This document shows, piece by piece, positions 4,347-16,055 of a stretch of 16,055 bases of DNA (its first letter is position 1; every line of letters starts with the position of its first letter). The DNA comes from Dunaliella salina (Eukaryota; Chlorophyta; Chlorophyceae; Chlamydomonadales; Dunaliellaceae): positions 113,273 through 129,327 of the forward strand of contig MU069678.1 in assembly GCA_002284615.2 (NCBI GenBank), given 5' to 3'. Position numbers and translations under genes: made by a program. Below the pieces are notes generated by a model that made no database searches, was not told where the DNA came from, and saw nothing but the letters and a program-made list of their open reading frames with translations.

Positions 4347-4735
4347 GAGAAAAAGAAAGAAAAGAAAAACTACGCAGGCAGTGAAAACACTCCCCACATC
4401 AATTAGGGAAAAGGGGATACCTAGGGCCAAGGCACCGTGTATCCTCTTCACCAAGAGAAAGCAGAAGAAAGAAGACAGTAAGGATCAGGTGGGTTACTAG
4501 CAGTACCCCGTGCCTGACCTTGTTGAGAGTTGATAAAGGTTTTCTCAAGAGCGCGTTTGGTGCTGGCGAGTTTGTAAGCATACAGGACAGAGTGAGCATG
4601 TAGCTTCTGGCTTCAAGCTTGGTGGCCTTGAAAGTGTCAAGACCAAGCTCCTTAAGAGGCTCCAATGTGTGTGGGGTGTAGATGATTCCTCCCACACCTA
4701 ACAGGATAGTATGGAGGGTGACTTGAGCTGAGGCT
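4347..4735 (-). pseudogene. LINE family II, truncated C-terminus plus B-type 3' UTR
   Basis: The minus strand from about 4720 encodes GGIIYTPHTLEPLKELGLD, matching GGSIYTEHTLKQFKQLGLD at the end of the nuclease-like domain of the copy near 13400. In another frame it ends QARGTASNPPDP, matching the family II terminus ASGNPPDPH. The UTR follows and ends in a CTTTT-rich tail at about 4347-4365. At least one frameshift separates the two parts, and the stop codon is lost. It is a 5'-truncated insertion. Confidence 0.8.
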
Positions 4736-4869
4736 CTAGAAAGATGACGGCAAAAGTCCCGATTACTGAGTTGCTATTTTCTCAGTGTTTTCCTGATCAA
4801 AAGAGCTGAGCAGCCAAACTCAATGGCTGAAGGCTTGATTCCCATTGTATCCTTGTAACCTTATAACCT

Positions 4870-6848: not shown

Positions 6849-7085
6849 GAAAGAAAAGAGAAACTACACAGGCAGTGGATACACTCCCCGTATCCATTAA
6901 GGAAAAGAGGATACCTTGGGCCAATGCATTGTGTATTCCCTTCACCAAGAGAGAAAATGAAGAAAAAATGACAGTGGGGATCAGGAGGGTTACTGGCAGT
7001 AGCCCGTGCCTGACTTTGTTGGTGAGAGCTGAAAGAAGTCTTCTCTAGAGCTCGTCTGGTACTGGCAAGTTCGTTAGCGCACTGG
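6849..7085 (-). pseudogene. LINE family II, truncated end with B-type tail
   Basis: The minus strand encodes VQCANELASTRRALE and, further on, QARATASNPPDPH, matching VQYAHKLVTTRRAIE...ASGNPPDPH in the copy near 13300. The stop codon is lost. The B-type UTR follows and ends in a CTTTT-rich tail near 6849-6860. The insertion is cut at its 5' end at about 7085, where the A/G run of the next element begins. Confidence 0.8.
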
Positions 7086-7690
7086 ACTATAAGAAAAGAA
7101 AAAGGGAACCATTACGCAGGCAGTGAAAACACTCCCCACATCAATTAAGGAAAAGAGGATACCTTGGGCCAAGGCACCGTATATCCCCTTTACCACCTTT
7201 GGACAACATCTCTCGAAAACATCTCTCGAGCTATTCCAGACTGGTCTTTCCCAAATGGCACTGCCTCACCTGCACGGCACCAAAGCCTCCCTAATGCTAT
7301 CTTTGTGCGCCCTTTTCCAGGCAGAAAAACTTGATCCTTCCAAGACTCCCTCACAAGATAGGGGCATCAACCTCGTTGAGCTTAAATTCTGCCCTGACAT
7401 GAATCCCTTCGTCACTTTAGAACGTGTGCAGGCTCAACATTCCCACATCATAAACAGACTTAAAATAGGCAGCTTAAGAAACCCAAACAGGAATAACAAA
7501 GTGACTTTGCGCATCATCTTGATTGGTGTGGGTGGCATGATTGACAACGATTGTACAATTACACCTTTTGTAAATCTGGGCCTGACCAAACAAAAAGCTG
7601 AATTGCTAGCATCCCAGCTTGGGGACCATGCCATCTAAAGATTATCCACCATCATTGACACTAGACATGCCCTTTGCTTTCATGGGTAGG
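7086..7690. mobile_element. Family II LINE insertion with inverted 5' part (twin-priming structure)
   Basis: At 7086-7195 lies a minus-strand B-type tail (A/G run, then TACGCAGGCAGTGAAAACACTCC). At about 7196 the orientation flips, and the plus strand encodes the nuclease-like domain: LPNAIFVRP near 7290, then NLVELKFCPDMN near 7372, then IILIGVGGMID near 7517 and a decayed IIDTRHAL near 7655. The two segments meet by their 5' ends. This is the arrangement left when LINE integration primes on both target strands. In this copy the PD motif reads PN while E-L-K is retained, and a frameshift lies between them. Joining of two separate insertions is the alternative. Confidence 0.65.
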
Positions 7691-7860: not shown

Positions 7861-8131
7861 CCCCTCACACTATTCATGGGGCATCTGGGAGGGGGTTTGC
7901 TGGGCGCGCGGAGGCGGCTGAGGATGGAAGGAGAGTCCGAGTGCTCAGGGGCATTGCAAGCAGCCCTCCGGATCCCCATTAGTTTTGTCTCATGCTCTCT
8001 CCTAGGTTAGTTTTGTCTAGTTTAGGTAGAGGGCCCCCTGGTGAGGCTTCTAACTTTTGTTAGGGGTTCTTCCCTTAATGCACGCGGCCTTCGGCTTGCG
8101 CAGACTTTTCTTTTCTTTTTCTTTTTCTTTT
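7861..8131 (+). pseudogene. LINE family II C-terminus with A-type 3' UTR
   Basis: The plus strand encodes LRGIASSPPDPH followed by TAG (stop ending near 7982), the same terminus as the copies at 11763 and 13240. A different UTR follows, here called type A: TTTTGTCTC, CTCTCTCCTAGG, GTTTTGTCTAGTTTAGGT, then GGTTCTTCCC and GCGCAGACTTTTC, ending in a (CTTTT)n tail at 8108-8131. The left limit is uncertain. Sequence from 7861 to about 7940 is not matched by the other copies. Confidence 0.75.
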
Positions 8132-8284: not shown

Positions 8285-8445
8285 TTACATTTCAAAAAGT
8301 CAGCTGATCCATCTTGCCCCCTCTCAGGCTGCCATCATTTGGACAGCGCACTACACGTGCTCTCAGGCTGCCAAAATCATATCATCTCCAACATGAGAAC
8401 TGAACGCCATAACATTGCAGGCAGAATGATTACAAAAGTGTTCAT
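8285..8445 (+). pseudogene. LINE family II fragment with CCHC zinc knuckle
   Basis: The plus strand encodes HFKKSADPSCPLSGCHH and then HVLSGCQNHIISNMRTERH. This is close at the nucleotide level to the minus-strand copy at about 14065-13920. The zinc pattern C-x4-C-x7-H-x4-C is intact. It meets the minus-strand copy 2 tail-to-tail at about 8445, so either an inversion or an insertion in the opposite orientation took place. Confidence 0.75.
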
Positions 8446-8605
8446 TGTAAACAGTGCCAGCCACACCAATTAAGATGATACGTAGTGTCACTTTGTTACT
8501 CCTGTTTGGATTTCTTGAGCTGTGGGATTCAAGTCCGGTTTCAGTGTAAGAGTGTTGAGCTGCTGCCCGTTCCAAAGTGATGAAGGTGTTGGTGTCGGGA
8601 CAGCA

Positions 8606-8707
8606 TTGCAATTCAACGAGGTGGATGTCCCTTTCACGATCAGGGACCTGAGAGGGATCATAGTGGACAGGTCGGCCTGGGATAGAGCGCACAAAAATAG
8701 CATCTGG
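8606..8707 (-). pseudogene. PD...ExQ nuclease-like core of copy 2
   Basis: The minus strand at 8707-8606 encodes PDAIFVRSIPGRP followed by DIHLVELQ. In copy 1 the equivalent reads RPDAIL...HLIEIK. The pattern PD-x(n)-E-x-K is that of restriction-enzyme-like endonucleases, which nick target DNA in R2-type LINEs. The catalytic Lys is Gln here, consistent with decay. The segment after it, LRIILIGVAGTVYNEH, matches copy 1. Confidence 0.7.
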
Positions 8708-8923
8708 GCAGTTTTGGTGGCGGGCTGAGGAGCCTGTACTAATCAGGGATGCTATGTGTTATGTTTCAGGGACTTGCATGCCCTGCTCCTGGAGTCTCTC
8801 ATTACTGCAGCCATCCATGCCATTAAGGGAAGGGCCCTACCTGCCTTTACTGAGGGCATTATCACAGACATTAAGGCCTGCACAGTGTCTGTTGGTGTAT
8901 ATCCCACTCTTTGTTGAGTTGGT

Positions 8924-8974
8924 ACACCTGAGGAGTATGTGATCAATGTTGTCTTCAACACCACAGAGTGGGCA
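8924..8974 (-). pseudogene. CCHC zinc knuckle of copy 2
   Basis: Seventeen codons encode CPLCGVEDNIDHILLRC, a C-x2-C-x7-H-x4-C zinc-binding pattern. It lies between RNase H and the nuclease-like core, as in R2-type LINEs. Copy 1 has C-x4-C-x7-H-x4-C at the same place, so the two copies belong to different lineages. Confidence 0.75.
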
Positions 8975-9040
8975 CCTTATAGAAGTTGAAGGAAAGGTGA
9001 ACCTGATGGCATCTTTTTGTATGTATCTGTTTGGTACTTA

Positions 9041-9211
9041 ATCACATTAAGAAAAGAAAAAGAACAGGAAAGTCTACGCAAGCCAAAGGCCGCGTGCATG
9101 AAGGGAAGGTCCTCTAACTGGAAAGCTAGAGGCCTCACCAGAAAATCCTCGGAAACTACACTAGACACAGCTAGCCTAGGAGAGAGCCAGAAACAGATCA
9201 GATCACATTAA
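9041..9211 (-). mobile_element. A-type LINE tail insertion with 10-bp target-site duplication
   Basis: A 151-base insertion (9051-9201) is flanked by perfect copies of ATCACATTAA (9041-9050 and 9202-9211). It reads on the minus strand from GGCTCTCTCCTAGGCTAG through GCACGCGGCC and GCTTGCGTAGACTTTCC to a T/C-rich tail, so it is the A-type LINE UTR alone, truncated before the coding part. It interrupts copy 2 between RNase H and the CCHC knuckle. Confidence 0.9.
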
Positions 9212-9539
9212 TATGCTGTTGAAGGGTAATATTGGGATTTTTTCCAGAAGGAGTTGCTGATCTCCTTGTGAGCAAGTTTACAGTTTGGACTGTGAGCTTG
9301 GACGCTGACTGTGGTGATTGGAAAAACAAATGGCGGGGCAGAGTTGGGCTTCTGTTGTAGTCAGCAGAGCAAAGCTTGTGCATTTTGTGCATGTGTTCTT
9401 TCAGTTTGCCATTGAGGTTGGTGAGATATTGGATTGTTAGTGGTGCATTCCATCATTTTGTGCGTAAGAGGTCTTCAATAAAAGCCAGTAGAAATTGTGG
9501 AATGGGTCCCTGGCATCTGGAAGTACAATGTCTGTGGTG

Positions 9540-9960
9540 TCCGTGAGGTCTGCTGTGTGAGCGCAGGCGTTGGCCCCCTCATTGCCTACTATGCCAGAGT
9601 GTGCTTTGACTTTGTAGAAATGAATTGTGTGGGGGAAATGCTGTAATATGGTTGATATATCGTGGATGATGACCCTCTGCATGCAGGTGGTACCCCATGC
9701 GCATGGGATTCAGGCTTTGTCTTGAAATCTGGGAGAGGCAGGACGCACTATCAATGTAAGTTTGCTTGTGTTGGAGTGCCACAAGGATGGGTGCAAGTTC
9801 TGCTCTGGTGATTGTGACAATAGGCCCATGACCACTGGGTTTTGAATGCAAGTGTTGTGAGGATGGGGAAGTGTTCATTCTGGTTTGTAAACGCCTGAAC
9901 CACAGAGTGGTGGAGAGTCATCATTTTGGTGTTTAATGACATTGCCATCTGTGTACGTAA
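9540..9960 (-). pseudogene. RNase H domain of copy 2
   Basis: The minus strand shows VTYTDGN near 9955 (first Asp), TITRAELAPI near 9815 (Glu), YIDSASCLSQI near 9750 (Asp) and YKVKAHSGIVGNEGANACAH near 9620-9560. In most RNases H of this type the last block has an Asp in G-N-E-x-A-D. Here it is Asn, so the fourth catalytic residue is lost. In-frame TGA codons and a frameshift break the domain. It would remove RNA from the RNA:DNA hybrid during element copying. Confidence 0.8.
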
Positions 9961-9983
9961 CATTCCTCCAGTCCTTGATCTAG

Positions 9984-10066
9984 AAAAGAAAAAGAAAAGA
10001 AAAGAAAAGTCTATATAGACATATATGCAAGCCAAAGGCCGCGTGCAGTAAGGGAAGAACCAACCA
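9984..10066 (-). mobile_element. A-type LINE tail fragment inserted in copy 2
   Basis: The plus strand has an A/G-rich run (9984-10010), then a short spacer and GCAAGCCAAAGGCCGCGTGC followed by GGGAAGAACC, the terminal part of the A-type UTR. It is oriented on the minus strand, severely truncated, and separates the methyltransferase-like domain from RNase H in copy 2. No clear target-site duplication was found. Confidence 0.75.
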
Positions 10067-10259
10067 ATTAATTGATTTTGATTTTAGGTGTGAACATTTC
10101 CTTGCAGTTGGCAGGAAGGAAGGCTGCCCTTGCTTGAGGGCACTTGTGTAAGCAGGTATCAACGTCAAGGTGGAGTAATTGGAATTTCTTTTTCCAAGCG
10201 TTTGATGCATGGTGCTGGTGGGTGTGCAGGGGCATGGCGGGACTTGGGAGATGCAACAT

Positions 10260-11065
10260 CTTGACCGAGGAGTTGGAACCAATCTTTGTTAGTGCTGTAT
10301 AGCGCTTCTCTGACATTAGGATTCCAGACAACAATTAGTTGCATGGGATAAGAAGGTAGGGTAGGGTTAGGAAGGATACCAAATCAGTGTTGGGGTGCTT
10401 GGAATTGGATGTTTCCGGCAGGAAATTTGGCAAGCACTTTTGCAAGGTCTGGGTTATTGTTAAGCCAACCCATATATGCGTTACAGCTGAAGCCTCTCCA
10501 GTGGGGCAGGAGCATGAAGGTGGCGATTGGTCAAACGTGACCTTTGTCTTGATAAACTTTTCTTTTCTTTTCTTTTGGCAACTGGTTCTGTGCTTTGGAG
10601 GGAGGAGTGGACTGCATGGCGCAAGAGCCTAAACATAAGTCATTGTCATGAGGGGAATGGCAAGAGGAGAAGCCATTGAAGCAAACAGAGAGGGCGTCTG
10701 TGTGTGCCCCAAAGACCTGATCACGGCAGCTTGCGCTGAAGTAAGTGTTGAAGGTACTGTCAAATTCAAGAGGGTTTAAAAACCTCTGTTGAGATCAAGC
10801 ACCATTTATGTACGGCTGAACAAATGTGTGGAGGTGCGATCAGCATATCATTGTTGTGGATTTTTATTGTTTTGATAGAGAGATGTTTTGATTGAGCCTT
10901 TTGAAGTGAGAGTAGTCCCATGAATTCTGTTGCAGACTCCTGGCCAGGTGGCTGGATGGTGGCATGGATGCCAGCCTTTTTGGCTGCTTCATAAGCTCCA
11001 AGCAGGATGCTGAGTCTGTCTATAGTGAGCATACCATCTCGCTTTCCATTGGCATTGTAAATACA
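10260..11065 (-). pseudogene. PCIF1-like methyltransferase domain of copy 2
   Basis: From 11065 the minus strand encodes CACIYNANGKRDGML and LLGAYEAAKKAGIH. After a frameshift near 10790 come PLEFDSTFNTYFSAS, CRDQVFGAHTDALS and NGFSSCHSPHD. After a CTTTT tract (10558-10577) come ATFMLLPHWRGF and PAGNIQFQAPQ. Copy 1 has the same blocks. The series SPL-x-F-x(n)-Y-x-SA, D-x2-FGA, G-x-S-x-x-(N/H)P, LP-x-W and a final Asn-containing strand matches my recollection of the PCIF1 N6-adenine methyltransferase domain. The catalytic NPPF-like site reads HSPH here, so activity is not expected. Confidence 0.6.
10554..10580 (+). repeat. (CTTTT)n tract splitting the methyltransferase-like domain
   Basis: The plus strand reads TTTTCTTTTCTTTTCTTTT at about 10559-10577, between two halves of a coding region that are contiguous in copy 1. 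It looks like the tail of a plus-strand LINE insertion so short that no UTR can be recognised. Confidence 0.5.
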
Positions 11066-11423
11066 GGCACATTCGCAGGTGTTTACTTCCGGCATTTGTG
11101 CTGGCATAATAACCCCATTAAATGCGACAGGTTTAAGGGTTTCCTTCATGAGGCCAACATTTCCTAGAATGATATCATGTTGCCATGCTGGCATGATGTC
11201 TGTCTGGGGGTTGGTAGGTCGAAAGTCAAAGGTAACATTTTTGCAAATGGCACAGCCGATTTTTGAGAGCCATGAGAAGTCAGGCAGGCTCTGAGGATTG
11301 CTTTCAAAACCTTGGTTGACCAGATTGTCCAGGTCCATCTCATTTTTGTTCCAGACTTTCCTCTTCAAATGCTTGCACGTGGGCATGTAGATCTGGGTGC
11401 ATTTGTAACGTATCAACAGCTTT

Positions 11424-11633
11424 CCATTTGGGATGCCATTCCACGTAGATCATTTCGCATTCTCCAGCGAAGTTGAGCCTTTTCACTTTTTGGGAGGCTG
11501 ACAAAGGGGGGCATGCGGGGCAGTCCCAGCACTCATCAGGATTGCTTAATGCTTGGTCATGCTGGGAGCAGACTTTAATTTCTATGAGACAGCCCCAGTG
11601 GTATGTGCGGTGGCAGATATCACAAGTGGGCAT
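11424..11633 (-). pseudogene. PHD finger (second half) and W-P-W motif of copy 2
   Basis: The minus strand from 11633 encodes PTCDICHRTYHWGCL and then CWDCPAC, giving C-x2-C-x4-H-x2-C...W-x-C-x2-C, the second part of a PHD finger. The first Cys pair, DPCCQLC, is encoded at about 11705-11685, in another frame. PHD fingers read histone H3 tails. About 25 residues later comes IYVEWHPKW and a helix ending AFEEE, resembling a decayed chromodomain-like repeat with W-x-P-x-W. PHD fingers are known in some CR1-like LINE proteins. Here the finger precedes a methylase-like domain. Frameshifts on both sides show it is not expressed as such. Confidence 0.75.
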
Positions 11634-11718
11634 ATCCTCGAAGCGTTCAGATTCCTGTGTGTTCTTTGCTCACTGGGCTCCAGCAGAGCTGGCAACATGG
11701 GTCTATGTCATATGCTAG

Positions 11719-11952
11719 TGCGTGTGGCCCTTCCACACAGGAATCGTTTCTTTCAGGGGCATGGCTAGCAATCCTCCAGATCCCCATTAGTTCTGTCTCT
11801 TGCTCTCTCCTAGGCTAGTTTTGTCTAGTTTAGGTGGAGGGCCTCCTGGTGAGGCCTCTAACTTTTGTTAGGGGTTCTTCCCTTTATGCACGTGGCCTTT
11901 GGCTTGCGTAGACTTTTCTTTTCTTTCTTTCTTTTCTTTTCTTTTGCGTGTG
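11719..11952 (+). mobile_element. A-type LINE 3' end inserted into the PHD region, with target-site duplication
   Basis: The insertion at 11727-11944 is flanked by TGCGTGTG at 11719-11726 and 11945-11952. On the plus strand it encodes the last codons of family II (FRGMASNPPDPH, then TAG), followed by the A-type UTR and a T/C-rich tail. Taking it out with one copy of the duplication brings the first Cys pair of the PHD finger next to the linker upstream. It is therefore younger than copy 2 and lies in the opposite orientation. Confidence 0.85.
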
Positions 11953-11989
11953 CACCTGTCTCGGCATCTGTGTACCTCTGTACGTGGCT

Positions 11990-12590
11990 GACTGTTTGAG
12001 GATATGCTATCCTGCTGCCAGCTGCCTGAAGGTACATTGTCTACTTCCATATCCTGGGCATCAAAGAGGGGGTTGCTGTAAGTTCTGGAGTCATGATGTA
12101 TGTGTATGTCGGAAGCAGGGCCCTCATTGACCAGGGTGCAGTTGGGGGAGCCTGTGGGGAGCTTTGTCCAGTTCCAGCCTGTTGGTGTGTGACCTGTGTT
12201 TATCATCATGCATATGTCGTGTTGTTCATGCGGCGTGACTCAGGGGGGTTATTGGGCAAGCTGTCTTGGATCTGTATGATTGTGTTGATGAGATCAGGTG
12301 TCAGGTTGTGAGTGTTGAGAATATGGGAAAATTTGTTCAGGGCTGTGATGTGTCTGTTCCTAATTTTGCCTCCGAACAGGGATGCGAGTTTGTTTTCGTC
12401 AATGACATGGGTGAGGTAATTCAGCAGGGACGAGAGCCTGTGTATGCCTACTTCCATGAGGGATCCCTCATGCTCCCTCCGGAGTGTGTGCAATGGCCGG
12501 CTAAGGACTTGAGGGTGGTTTGCATTGGCATTGAAAGAGTATTTAAGTTCTTTTCCGGTTGCATCGTGAGATGCGTGAGGATGTTGCATT
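11990..12590 (-). pseudogene. Post-thumb-like region and linker of copy 2
   Basis: At 12589-12206 the minus strand encodes LRREHEGSLMEVGIHRLSSL, then NYLTHVIDENKLASLFGGK and TALNKFSHIL. This resembles the region following the RT thumb in R2/RandI-like LINEs (compare LRKDKINFGLGCPTL in copy 1). A frameshift near 12209 leads into a polar, acidic stretch (FDAQDMEVDN) that looks like a flexible linker before the PHD finger. The assignment to a post-RT position is an inference from weak similarity. Confidence 0.5.
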
Positions 12591-12662
12591 TACAGAGCGA
12601 ACTCACCAACTTGCCAGGTATAAAAGGAAGAAGAAAGGAAGAACAAGGGAAGGCAGGAAGTG

Positions 12663-12693
12663 TGCCTCAGGTTTTAAAATAAAACCTGAGGCA
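12663..12693. repeat. Perfect hairpin, 14-bp arms
   Basis: TGCCTCAGGTTTTA (12663-12676) and TAAAACCTGAGGCA (12680-12693) are exact reverse complements with a 3-base spacer. It lies in the segment between the two duplicated blocks and inside no recognised gene. Confidence 0.9.
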
Positions 12694-12795
12694 AGTTGGA
12701 AAGTGTTTCTGGAAATACAAAAAGATGGAGACATTATACTAGGGAACAGGAAAGTACACAGGTCACACATCTCACTTCCTGCAACCTCCAAGAAC

Positions 12796-12824
12796 CTGAG
12801 TTCTTTTGCAAGCAAAGAACTCAG
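12796..12824. repeat. Perfect hairpin, 11-bp arms
   Basis: CTGAGTTCTTT (12796-12806) and AAAGAACTCAG (12814-12824) pair around a 7-base loop. It lies 100 bases from the 14-bp hairpin, and both contain CTGAG. Confidence 0.85.
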
Positions 12825-13111
12825 TGATTTGTGATGCTAGAGCAAAGGTAAGAGAGCCTGTGTATGCCTACTTCCATGAGGAGTGTGTGCAATGGCCGGC
12901 TAAGGACTTGAGGTTGATTTGCATTGGCATTGAAAGAGGATTTAAGTTGGTGATGCTAGAGAAAAGATAAGGTGCTCCTTGAAAGGATACTTAAAGAGCG
13001 CTGTTGTTGATGCAGAGATATTTCCTAGGAGCATTACCATGTGGGGGCATTTGGTGGACCGGCCGTGTCTGCCAGTGTTATTGAGGCTGGTGGTGAGAGC
13101 CGTTGCGCACC

Positions 13112-13238
13112 TTGAAAAGAAAAAAGAAAAACTACGTAGGCAGAGAAACTCTCCCTGCATCAATTAAGGAAGAGGAGACACATTGGCTCCAAAAGGGCTG
13201 TGAGTTTCCTCCACAACAAGGTAAGAAAAAAGGGAAAG
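13112..13238 (-). other. B-type LINE 3' UTR and tail
   Basis: This untranslated tail follows the TAG stop. Blocks in order on the minus strand are CTTACCTTGTTGTGGAGG, AACTCACAGCC, GAGCCAATGTGTCTCC, CCTTAATTGATGCAGGG and CTACGTAG, then T/C-rich sequence. The same blocks follow the family I copy at about 1880-1745 and the truncated ends at 4347, 6849 and 7086. Confidence 0.85.
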
Positions 13239-13571
13239 CTAATGGGGATCTGGAGGGTTACCGGAAGCACCTGGCTCTAGACCCTGGGTGTAGGGAGTAT
13301 TCTTGTTTTCAATAGCGCGGCGTGTGGTGACTAGTTTGTGTGCATATTGTACAGAATGAGCATGAAGTTGTCGAGCAAGCTTACTGGCACGATGGTGATC
13401 CAGTCCTAGTTGTTTGAATTGCTTGAGGGTGTGCTCTGTGTAAATACTACCACCAACACCCATGAGAATAGGGTGGATTGTAACAACTTTAGCGTGAATA
13501 AGTTTACACAGGTCTGCATGCTGCTGCTTTGCAGCTTTCAACTGATGCTCAGGCCTTGTGTCTTCACAGAA

Positions 13572-13748
13572 CTTGATTTCTATCAAGTGCACATGGCGTT
13601 CATTCGCATACAATTCATGGGGTTGCCGTCCACTCCTAATCCTGGTGGTCCTCCGCATGGACCTGCGCAAAAGGTGTTGTGTTTGAATAGAAGAAACATT
13701 GTTAGAAGTTGGCTTGGCATTAAGAGGGGTGATCAAAATGGCATCTGG
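13572..13748 (-). pseudogene. PD...ExK nuclease-like core of copy 1
   Basis: RPDAIL (starting at 13751) is followed, about 50 residues on, by HVHLIEIKFCED with the E-x-K pair, then by QLKAAKQQHADL. This spacing and the hydrophobic strand before E-x-K suit a PD-(D/E)xK, restriction-like endonuclease of the kind found C-terminal in R2 and Dualen/RandI LINEs. All three key residues are present. It sits after the zinc knuckle, as expected. Confidence 0.7.
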
Positions 13749-13985
13749 TCGACTTGTATTGAGTCTTTTCATTCCTTGAAGGTTTCGAGGGAAAAAGTAA
13801 GCAGGTATAGTTCTATTTGAGGCGTGTGTAGGGAGTTGCAGGTTATGTTGAGCAAGCTTGAAATCGCTTCCAATGTCTGTGTAGACCAGGCCTGCTCCTA
13901 CAGGGCTTTTGCTGAGTGCTTTTGTAATCATTCTGCCTGCAAATTTATGGCGTTTGGTTTTCATGTTGGAGATGATATGGATCTG

Positions 13986-14042
13986 GCAGCCTGAGAGCAT
14001 GTGGAGTGCGCTATCCAAGTGATGGCAGCCTGGAAGGGGGCA
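13986..14042 (-). pseudogene. CCHC zinc knuckle of copy 1
   Basis: It encodes CPLPGCHHLDSALHMLSGC, a C-x4-C-x7-H-x4-C pattern with all ligands intact. It is followed by a basic stretch (NMKTKRHKFAGRM). Such knuckles next to a restriction-like endonuclease bind target DNA in R2-type elements. Confidence 0.8.
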
Positions 14043-14439
14043 CATTGGGTCAGTAGACCTTTTGAAATGGACTGCATGCTTTTGATTGTAGAAGGTGCCT
14101 GTGCGATACCATAGGATGGTACGCTTCATGGGTATGGAAATGTTGGGCGAATGTCTGAAGGCATTGCTAATTTTCTTATCCACTTGCGGTAATAAGTTTC
14201 AATAGTAAGAGTAGTAACCAGTTCTGGCATTGGCATATCCAAGTTTGTGTTTAGAATGCATGTGGGACTTGAGAGCACCTTGAAGATTTGGGAGATAGGT
14301 GAGTTTGGGGGCGGGTGGGGGACCCGTAGATGTGCCTGCAGCATGCACTCTTTCTTCTTTGGCTAACCAGGAAATATTTGTAAATGGATCTCTACCAGGA
14401 CCTGCACTGCGGTGGCACCAGGTATCTGGGTGTCTGCCA

Positions 14440-14850
14440 CACAGTTCTGGGCTTGTTTTGCCTGATGCTTTGCAATGGCATCTGCACATTCATTTCCAGC
14501 GATGCCAGCATGGGACTTCACTTTGTAAATTCGAATTTTGGTATGGAAGTCTCTAATGAGCGTTGAAATCATTTTAAGGACGTCTCCTTGGATATGCCTC
14601 AGATGTCTTTCAGGATAGAGAAGCTGTTTACGTATTTGATTGAAAGAGGTGAGGCTGTCTGATGCAATACCTGCATATTTGGTGATGATAGCAGCAGCAA
14701 TTGCTGCTAATTCAGATCTAGTGATGGTTTTAGTAATCCCAGTACCGTTTGGGTCTACAAAGTTCTTGCTGTCAGTGGACGGGCAGCAGGGGACGCCTGC
14801 TCCAATTTCTTGCTTTCCGTTACGGACAAGTCAGCTGCCATCTGTGTATG
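14440..14850 (-). pseudogene. RNase H domain of copy 1, with in-frame TGA
   Basis: The minus strand has WAYTDGS, then TGA (14831-14833), then RNGKQEIGAGV, TITRSELAAIAAAI, GIASDSLTSFNQI and IYKVKSHAGIAGNECADAI. The four catalytic residues (Asp, Glu, Asp, Asp) are all present. Apart from the TGA the frame is open to 14363. A frameshift near 14420 then moves the coding to another frame (RDPFTNISWLAKEE). Confidence 0.85.
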
Positions 14851-14950
14851 CCCATGACCTCCAATCAGCAACTTCGAGAGTTGGGGGAGTTCTGGATTGG
14901 CTGGGCACCAAGTCTCCTTTCAGGCCCTGTTGCCAGTCTTTGTTATGATT

Positions 14951-15673
14951 GTTGAGATGAACTCGAGCTGCAGTGTTCCAGACAGCAAAGATACGAAGGT
15001 CCCAGGTATGCTGAGGTAGAGGTACCTCTTGGTTAGGACATGATTGAGGGGCACTGTAAACAAATGTTTTGCAAGGTATGGTTCCAAGGTCGTAACAGAG
15101 GTGGGGGTAGGCAGTGACAAGTTTGGAGTAGGGGTTGGTTATCATGTTCTTTTTCCAACCCGGAAGGAACATGAATGTAGCAGTGGCTTCTGTGTTGAGA
15201 ATGGTAGAGTAAATGGCATATTGCAAAGCTTGGGTCGTGATTCCCTCGTCATAAATGGGATGGCAGACTGAGAAGCCTGAGAACTTGGATGAGAAGGCAT
15301 TATGCATGGCACCAAAAAGGGTGTCTCTGGAGACCGCACTCCAATAATTCTGGTACTGTGGGTTGTGGTCTAGTGGGGAGGCCTTTTTTTCTTGGGTTAC
15401 CAAAGCCCATTTTTGAAAGGCAGCATGAATGTGGGTTGGAAGGGCTCTTGAAAAAGAGTCTACGATCTCCTTGCTAGAGTACTTTCTTTCAAGCATGGAT
15501 TTGCGGGAAAGAAGTCCTTGCAGCTCAGTGGCAAAGTTGCCAGGAGGTGGCATTATTTTCTCGTGCATGCCAGCAAGCTTGGCCCCATAAAAATCCCTGT
15601 AGAGGATTTGGAAGCGGTTAGGGGGTATCATACCAACACATTTGCCTTGCGTATAATATATGCAGGCCATGTG
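14951..15673 (-). pseudogene. PCIF1-like methyltransferase domain of copy 1
   Basis: Inside an uninterrupted frame (start taken as Met at 15925), residues 85-150 hold MACIYYTQGKCVGM and FATELQGLLSRKS. Residues 180-325 hold KASPLDHNPQYQNYWSAV, RDTLFGAMHNAFSSKFSG, SVCHPIYDEG, TATFMFLPGWKKN, YDLGTIPCKTFVYSAP and WDLRIFAVWNTA. These blocks and their order fit the PCIF1 (cap-specific N6-adenine methyltransferase) domain as I remember it. The catalytic NPPF-like site would be HPIY, which lacks the Asn, so catalysis is doubtful in this copy. It lies between the RT thumb and RNase H. The domain assignment is from memory of the family, with no alignment run. Confidence 0.6.
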
Positions 15674-15829
15674 TGCCTGGAAATTTTCCGCGAGAATGAG
15701 GGGAGGTGGAGGGGGAGGGAAAAGGCAGAGGGTTGGGCACCCAAGTCCAAAGTTGATTTTGTCTTTTCTTAATATGGATGTGGCAGTGCATCGCCAGAGA
15801 TTATACCTGTCTTTGACAGTGGTGAGGAT

Positions 15830-15974
15830 CATCTTATCGCAGCCTGCAAGGTCATTCTCAGAGCAGGGTATGACTGGAAAGGCATATGCAATGCTCGGGA
15901 TGATGGCTGTACGAATGACATCCATGGTTTGCCTAGGTGTGGCAAATGAGGAAGCCAGGCCTGTAATCTTTCCT

Positions 15975-15978
<4 letters not shown>
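15830..15978 (-). pseudogene. RT thumb-like segment of copy 1
   Basis: The minus strand reads EGKITGLASSF, then TMDVIRTAIIPSIAYAFPVIP and GCDKMILTTVK. This is the usual thumb pattern after a LINE palm domain (a run of helices with iiPs..Y). The frame stays open upstream until it enters the (CA)n tract at the window edge. Confidence 0.6.

Positions 15979-16055
<77 letters not shown>
15979..16055. repeat. (TG)n microsatellite at the window edge
   Basis: The TG tract is uninterrupted from 15979 to the end of the window and presumably continues. It interrupts the upstream coding part of LINE copy 1. Confidence 0.97.

Follow-up and report, generated by a model that had tools for sequence, protein, structure and literature searches.

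We find that a non-long terminal repeat (non-LTR) retrotransposon of the green alga Dunaliella salina carries, between its reverse transcriptase (RT) and its RNase H, a domain that is almost certainly related to PCIF1, the writer of cap N6,2'-O-dimethyladenosine (m6Am) in eukaryotes. The sequence under study is a stretch of 16,055 nucleotides from contig MU069678.1 (GenBank assembly GCA_002284615.2, positions 113,273 to 129,327), hereafter the window, which holds two diverged copies of this long interspersed nuclear element (LINE), both on the minus strand: copy 1 at 13242-15979 and copy 2 at about 8438-12511 (tblastn). An original prediction, made from the letters alone, had recognized both copies and proposed that they encode a PCIF1/MT-A70-like N6-adenine methyltransferase that belonged to the ancestral open reading frame (ORF). 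The PCIF1-related fold stands; an ordinary N6-adenine methylase is not supported, with histidine in the place of the catalytic asparagine at 46 of 49 genomic places. The domain very probably belonged to the ancestral ORF, given that it recurs together with RNase H and a restriction-like endonuclease (RLE) in metagenomic and NCBI proteins and that its shared variation looks selected. Our overall reading, to which we assign a probability of roughly 0.7, is that these decayed LINE copies contain a PCIF1-homologous domain with an HPIY or HPPH site, which is predicted to bind S-adenosylmethionine (SAM) and, if active, would likely methylate RNA or newly made DNA of the element itself in cis. We found no report of a PCIF1 domain in any transposable element in the open-licence literature searched.

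Relationship of the domain to PCIF1

In copy 1 the PCIF1-like domain occupies 14903-15721 (minus strand) and matches the Pfam family PCIF1_WW (PF12237) over 15146-15538 with an E-value of 1.7e-7. All of the motifs named in the original prediction are present in this copy: ASPLD (15368-15382) with YWSA downstream, SRDTLFGA (15308-15331), CHPIY (15251-15265), LPGW (15155-15166), and VWNTA (14969-14983). ASPLD aligns with ASPLN of PCIF1, and CHPIY falls at the position of the catalytic NPPF (motif IV). Other genomic copies match the same Pfam family with E-values down to 3.5e-11 (2e-8 for L052, a copy of subfamily B), and the curated cut-off is exceeded at 150 of the 150 genome places scored, which were the best of 881 candidates. 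The blocks were only partly recovered in copy 2: RDQVFGA (10705-10725) is kept, whereas NPL, behind a frameshift, takes the place of SPL, and CHSPH, ahead of which the frame changes, stands at the (N/H)P site. The copy 2 frame at 10766-11449, which stops short of the (N/H)P site, gave no Pfam match at E 10.

Comparisons with known structures also point to PCIF1. A family profile built from three subfamilies (A4) returned PCIF1 as its sole match among 177,635 sequences of the PDB, and the six best PDB matches to the predicted fold are all PCIF1. The best of these aligns model residues 82-269 with PCIF1 476-668, and others begin at PCIF1 424-429; RNA and DNA adenine methylases, including RlmJ, METTL5, and TaqI, rank below PCIF1 among the fold neighbours. 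Searches for other families were negative within their scope. MT-A70, the second family named in the original prediction, went unmatched in seven window ORFs (at E 10) and in L009 and L017 (at E 1), neither a Dam-like methylase nor a tyrosine recombinase was matched by Pfam in the ORFs scanned, and a tblastn search against phages found no match.

Several results weigh against our overall reading of the domain. The structure model is of low confidence, with a mean predicted local distance difference test score (pLDDT) of 59.6. Searched by sequence against the PDB, copy 1 alone missed PCIF1 and gave just a weak match to the R2 thumb (E 1.2), and an initial profile (A1), made from proteins whose flanks had been left on, also missed it and returned coiled-coil-like entries at E 0.53 or worse. 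The 1605-residue ORF of L009, which excludes the RT and everything upstream, showed no WW domain at E 1, and the cap-binding helical domain of PCIF1 is not clearly seen in the fold alignment. One might therefore regard the region as ordinary LINE connection sequence with a chance likeness to PCIF1, a view that the low model confidence and the two unsuccessful PDB searches favour, as does the copy 1 Pfam score, which lies barely above the cut-off (31.4 versus 31.1 bits). Against this view, independent methods agree and no other family ranks near PCIF1, and we consider a chance likeness very improbable. A methyltransferase fold related to PCIF1 is supported by Pfam, the PDB profile, the low-confidence fold model, the shared frame, and linkage. 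Since neither NPPF nor a WW domain was found, we do not class the domain as a PCIF1 m6Am methyltransferase.

The domain is widespread in the genome. Using copy 1 as a query, we scored 108 genome places from 7268 first-look candidates; identity is 79-87% apart from the window itself, and most of the matches cover residues ~86-358 of the query, which correspond to 14903-15721. Over the aligned region, subfamily A, to which copy 1 belongs, is just 32-35% identical to subfamilies B and C. No host PCIF1 gene turned up among the 150 scored of 881 candidates in a search blind to introns; the best PF12237 match reached 47.3 bits, and all 30 loci of the best matches (L021-L050) belong to the three element subfamilies (identity to the probe 87-98%). 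Some 1.4 kb upstream of a copy from subfamily A, at L012:6827-7143 (minus strand), lies a further PCIF1-like place that is more diverged. It is 55% identical to the subfamily C probe, reads CHPPH, and is perhaps a fourth subfamily.

Element architecture and domain linkage

Pairwise linkage of domain matches across the genome gives the order protease-like domain, apurinic/apyrimidinic endonuclease (APE), RT, zinc finger, PCIF1-like domain, RNase H, CCHC, and R2-type RLE. The linkage and copy numbers are lower bounds, as the best candidates alone were scored. The central part of this order can be read directly in individual copies. In L011, RT (RVT_1, 6.1e-22), PCIF1-like domain, and RNase H lie in a single frame interrupted by just three in-frame stops, and in L009 a continuous frame of 1606 codons encodes the zinc finger, PCIF1-like domain, RNase H, and RLE. 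At least 14 pairs of RT and PCIF1 matches among the best-scored candidates show this order on the same strand (contig C134 is counted twice), against 0. In the four tightest pairs the gap between the two matches is 2338-2353 bases, and in L011 the zinc finger lies inside it. Pfam scores for the zinc finger (PHD_4, and zf-RING_15 at 9.2e-5 in L011) fall below the curated cut-offs; hence we call it PHD/RING-like and nothing narrower.

The upstream part of the element was placed in the same way. With 134 APE and 78 RT matches scored, 22 APE-to-RT pairs are in order within 12 kb, 0 are reversed, and 0 are on opposite strands. A Josephin-like cysteine protease domain was found at L009:6756-7739 (minus strand; 7.6e-7) and at 39 places in the genome. 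It lies upstream of APE on the same strand at a distance of 0.4-3 kb in 12 pairs on 11 contigs (C1170 is counted twice), with 0 reversed and 0 opposite among 39 Josephin matches; just 1 pair links Josephin to RT (C485). We propose that this domain is probably the element's N-terminal protease.

Based on its domain set and order, with APE before RT and an R2-type RLE at the C-terminus, the element is very likely a Dualen-type non-LTR retrotransposon. A LINE-type RT, APE upstream of it, RNase H after it, and C-terminal CCHC and RLE are all features of Dualen/RandI; an apparent difference is that here RT and RNase H are separated by a zinc finger and a PCIF1-like domain. Kojima and Fujiwara reportedly described a cysteine protease in Dualen in 2005, and the R2 non-LTR retrotransposon, to our knowledge, lacks RNase H, APE, and any methyltransferase-like domain. 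Two points speak against the Dualen assignment: no single copy among those read has all of the parts, and APE has no Pfam match in L053, where its end motif was recognized by eye only. APE was also not seen in the window copies.

A further alternative is that the PCIF1-like piece represents a host gene, or some other mobile element, and lies beside LINE pieces by accident. The closer spacing of RT and PCIF1-like domain in copy 1 can be counted in its favour, as can the small number of contigs, at least 13 among the scored matches, on which an RT match is paired with one of 226 PCIF1 places (two match lists merged by eye, with 32 of 150 dropped as overlaps). Against it stand the continuous frames of L009 and, from RT onwards, L011, the same-strand order of 14 versus 0, and the recurrence of the fusion with RNase H and RLE in metagenomic proteins, such that an accidental neighbour is extremely unlikely.

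This recurrence extends to CCHC, in that the PCIF1-like part, RNase H, CCHC, and RLE are found together in metagenomic and NCBI proteins. For instance, P0082-P0087 are 52-71% identical to L017 in the matched part, and P0090 is 41% identical to P0086. All of these keep the four parts, although the PCIF1-like part is shorter in P0087, and they end in ...PPDPH (...PRDPH in P0090). A remote relative, P0113 from ENA (23% identity), has RNase H and a PCIF1-like part that matches at 4.7e-5, below the cut-off. Two observations concern the sources of such proteins. P0089 (Dunaliella salina DUNSADRAFT_4421) is 75% identical over its last 64 residues to the stretch of the element just behind the PCIF1-like domain and seems to be an annotated gene model that incorporates a LINE piece. 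Few of the matches name their source; among those that do, many are EukProt entries (P0001 and others) with the label Pelagomonas calceolata, and the running numbers of several exceed one million. This label may reflect green-algal contamination of that set.

Catalytic motif, selection, and proposed mechanism

The element departs from PCIF1 at the site of catalysis. In addition to histidine, the first position of motif IV is asparagine at 1 genomic place and glutamine at 2 (50 places were found, 1 of which does not cover the motif). Histidine is present in 35 of 37 places in subfamily A, 7 of 7 in B, where L047 and L048 from the same contig and the same protein stretch are both counted, and 4 of 5 in C; the motifs of the three subfamilies read CHPIY, CHPPH, and CHPPY, respectively. 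Proteins give the same picture, with histidine in 60 of 64, asparagine in 1, and a gap in 1 (79 matched, 15 of which do not cover the position; the 64 include the window copy), and with CHPPY in P0090 and CHPNY in P0104. None of the copies and proteins read showed the intact NPP[FYW] motif that the original prediction proposed to look for.

These substitutions, and others in the same motif, tell against an active methylase. Subfamily A has isoleucine as the third motif letter, subfamily B has histidine in place of the aromatic residue, and P0113 reads APPG. In human PCIF1, N553A is described as inactive in passages of PMC9124189. Given that the catalytic asparagine is mostly replaced and that N553A is inactive, catalysis is doubtful, and we put the chance that the domain is catalytically active just short of even.

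In contrast to the altered motif IV, S-P-L and D-x2-FGA are invariant across seven diverse aligned sequences with identity down to 23%. The active-site loop of PCIF1 is given as F479-P494 in the part of PMC10544176 consulted, and we infer that ASPLN of PCIF1 lies in or adjoins it. From this position beside the loop, S-P-L and D-x2-FGA would serve SAM. With these blocks kept and motif IV altered, it appears that the SAM side was conserved and the target side modified.

An alternative that must be weighed here is that the domain is a PCIF1-derived pseudo-methyltransferase, a module that binds nucleic acid (or SAM) and holds the element RNA or the target for target-primed reverse transcription. 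The substitution of the catalytic asparagine in nearly all copies and proteins read and the loss of activity in N553A fit such a module, as does the variability of motif letters 3 (I, V, T, P, N, and others) and 4 (Y, H, F, G, and others). Excerpts of PMC10544176 also use NPPF/APPA and NPPF/SPPG as dead PCIF1 mutants, and the APPG of P0113 is close to both of these inactivating changes. However, the invariance of S-P-L and D-x2-FGA speaks against such a module, and C-H-P is almost fixed rather than drifting, which suggests a job for the histidine. We regard a pseudo-methyltransferase as a real possibility whose chances are somewhat below even.

Patterns of variation among copies suggest that selection retained the domain despite its altered catalytic letters. 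Using up to 37 copies, the ratio of nonsynonymous to synonymous changes per site (N/S) in the PCIF1-like domain is 0.19 for changes found in at least three copies versus 0.67 for singletons (Fisher 7e-8). The corresponding values are 0.15 versus 0.76 for RNase H, 0.15 versus 0.83 for RLE, and 0.22 versus 0.60 for the linker before the domain. Excluded from the test were loci that duplicate others, alignments below 70% identity, codons carrying two or three changes, variants shared by exactly two copies, stops, and columns covered by fewer than 8 copies; the N-terminal linker had no usable columns. Shared changes are mostly synonymous, just as they are in RNase H and RLE, so selection probably acted on the domain during the active life of the element. 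In our reading, old inherited differences were filtered by selection and recent ones mostly were not. Two points weaken this inference: the difference is not significant for the zinc finger (0.31 versus 0.54; p 0.13) or the linker after the domain (0.36 versus 0.59; p 0.25), and since the copies were picked by similarity, the figures for both classes of change are biased.

Returning to a methylase that acts in cis, a possible sequence of events is as follows. The polyprotein would bind its own RNA, as LINE proteins do, and the zinc finger could substitute for the WW and cap-binding parts of PCIF1 in delivering the substrate. SAM would be held by the retained SPL and D-x2-FGA loops, and an adenine of the element RNA or nascent cDNA would be methylated with histidine in place of asparagine. 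A histidine-variant methylase that acts in cis on element RNA or cDNA is possible, at slightly less than even odds. More tentatively, and with chances clearly short of even, the domain may be a working, re-tooled PCIF1 with a His-Pro-x-Tyr site that marks adenines of its own RNA or cDNA in cis, such that new copies arrive pre-marked and, in the algal host, are shielded from degradation or kept transcriptionally open. Alternatively, the enzyme could be active on another target atom or substrate (for example, a protein or another base) with the histidine as a new catalytic residue. The fixed histidine and the kept SPL and D-x2-FGA would fit such altered chemistry, but there is no direct evidence for another substrate, and RlmJ, METTL5, and TaqI among the fold neighbours are adenine methylases, although a shared fold proves no function. 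We consider this unlikely.

The window copies, related systems, and implications

Copy 1 is a decayed member of subfamily A that comprises the RT end, PCIF1-like domain, RNase H, CCHC, and RLE (13242-15979; tblastn with L009, L011, and P0084). As the original prediction held, an RT-thumb-like region lies upstream of the domain, at 15722-15979 (42% identity to the RT ORF of L011; E 4e-20), and RNase H lies downstream, at 14459-14851 (Pfam RNase_H 5.4e-9 over 14459-14809). The start of RNase H, WAYTDGS, sits in the preceding frame, with a single in-frame stop after TDGS. The C-terminal part (13242-14408) contains CCHC at 14019-14042 and the R2-type RLE, with RPD at 13734-13754 and E-I-K at 13569-13586, and ends in ...NPPDPH at 13242. 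It is followed at 13112-13238 by a 3' untranslated end with a (CTTTT)n-type tail, the end of which is approximate; a similar 3' end was recognized by eye in L009, L012, L016, and L017. Copy 1 is without the stretch that separates RT from the PCIF1-like domain in other genomic copies, and this closer spacing is probably a deletion. A TG microsatellite at 15980-16055 truncates the copy within the RT, and past the end of the window the locus reads N.

Copy 2 (8438-12511, minus strand; tblastn with L052, L009, and P0090) is decayed and interrupted by short repeat insertions. Among the queries compared, it is nearest to the subfamily B copy L052, with 68% identity in the zinc finger and 57% in the PCIF1 stretch. 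The PHD/RING-like zinc finger (CDICHRTYHW) is at 11349-11660 (Pfam PHD_4 0.034, below the cut-off), and the PCIF1-like domain is spread over two frames at 10255-11065, with an approximate upper limit. The RNase H region (9482-9979) is 28% identical to L009 by tblastn, and Pfam RNase_H was not matched in 9579-9917. CCHC (CPLCGVED, 8951-8974) and RLE (PDAIFV, 8690-8707; VELQCC, 8600-8617) follow at 8438-9025, with 27-31% identity to L009, P0090, and P0084. Further relatives of the C-terminal part lie in the window at 4478-4767 and 6974-7087 on the minus strand and at 7321-7680 and 8285-8455 on the plus strand.

A short repeat is present at 11753-11940, 7945-8131, 9049-9197 (inverted), and 9984-10061, and the first two copies are 90% identical. 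It ends in a CTTTT-type run that resembles the 3' end of the LINE, and the copies at 11753-11940, 9049-9197, and 9984-10061 lie inside LINE copy 2. The repeat looks like a short interspersed nuclear element (SINE) that exploits the tail of this LINE. In Chlamydomonas, SINEX elements are linked to RandI, and one has (CTTT)n, according to passages of PMC3747384.

Compared with PCIF1/CAPAM, the domain shares the Pfam family, a matching fold, and aligned ASPL[ND], D..FG[SA], and motif IV positions. It differs in that NPPF is mostly HPIY, HPPH, or HPPY, a WW domain was not found, and the domain resides within a retrotransposon polyprotein. The capture of methyltransferases by retrotransposons is already known, and the PCIF1 type is a new variation. 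Sections of PMC5890265 describe DIRS elements with a Dam-like adenine methylase as well as SymbioLINE-Dnmt, SymbioDIRS-Dnmt3, and KnitGypsy-Dnmt3, and report that the DNA methyltransferase (DNMT) domains of these retrotransposons are also under purifying selection. Those elements carry domains of the Dam and C5 DNMT families, whereas the domain described here is related to PCIF1. In SymbioLINE, moreover, a separate ORF that precedes the one for RT mostly holds the DNMT, whereas here the domain lies inside the pol polyprotein of a LINE with both APE and RLE.

The presence of a PCIF1 fold in a lineage of retrotransposons would demonstrate that mobile elements have captured a cap methyltransferase, as they have DNMTs and Dam. 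If methylation in cis is true, the element would be the first LINE known to carry an adenine methylase descended from a eukaryotic cap methyltransferase. The HPIY, HPPH, HPPY, and APPG sites form a natural set of catalytic-loop variants for asking which residues this class of methylase needs, and the element raises the testable question of whether a retroelement marks adenines of its own RNA or DNA, or reads such marks. In the portion of PMC12695648 consulted, Chlamydomonas is placed among the lineages with robust N6-methyladenine (6mA) and the mark is tied to permissive chromatin. A self-marking element in a host with robust 6mA would be of direct interest.

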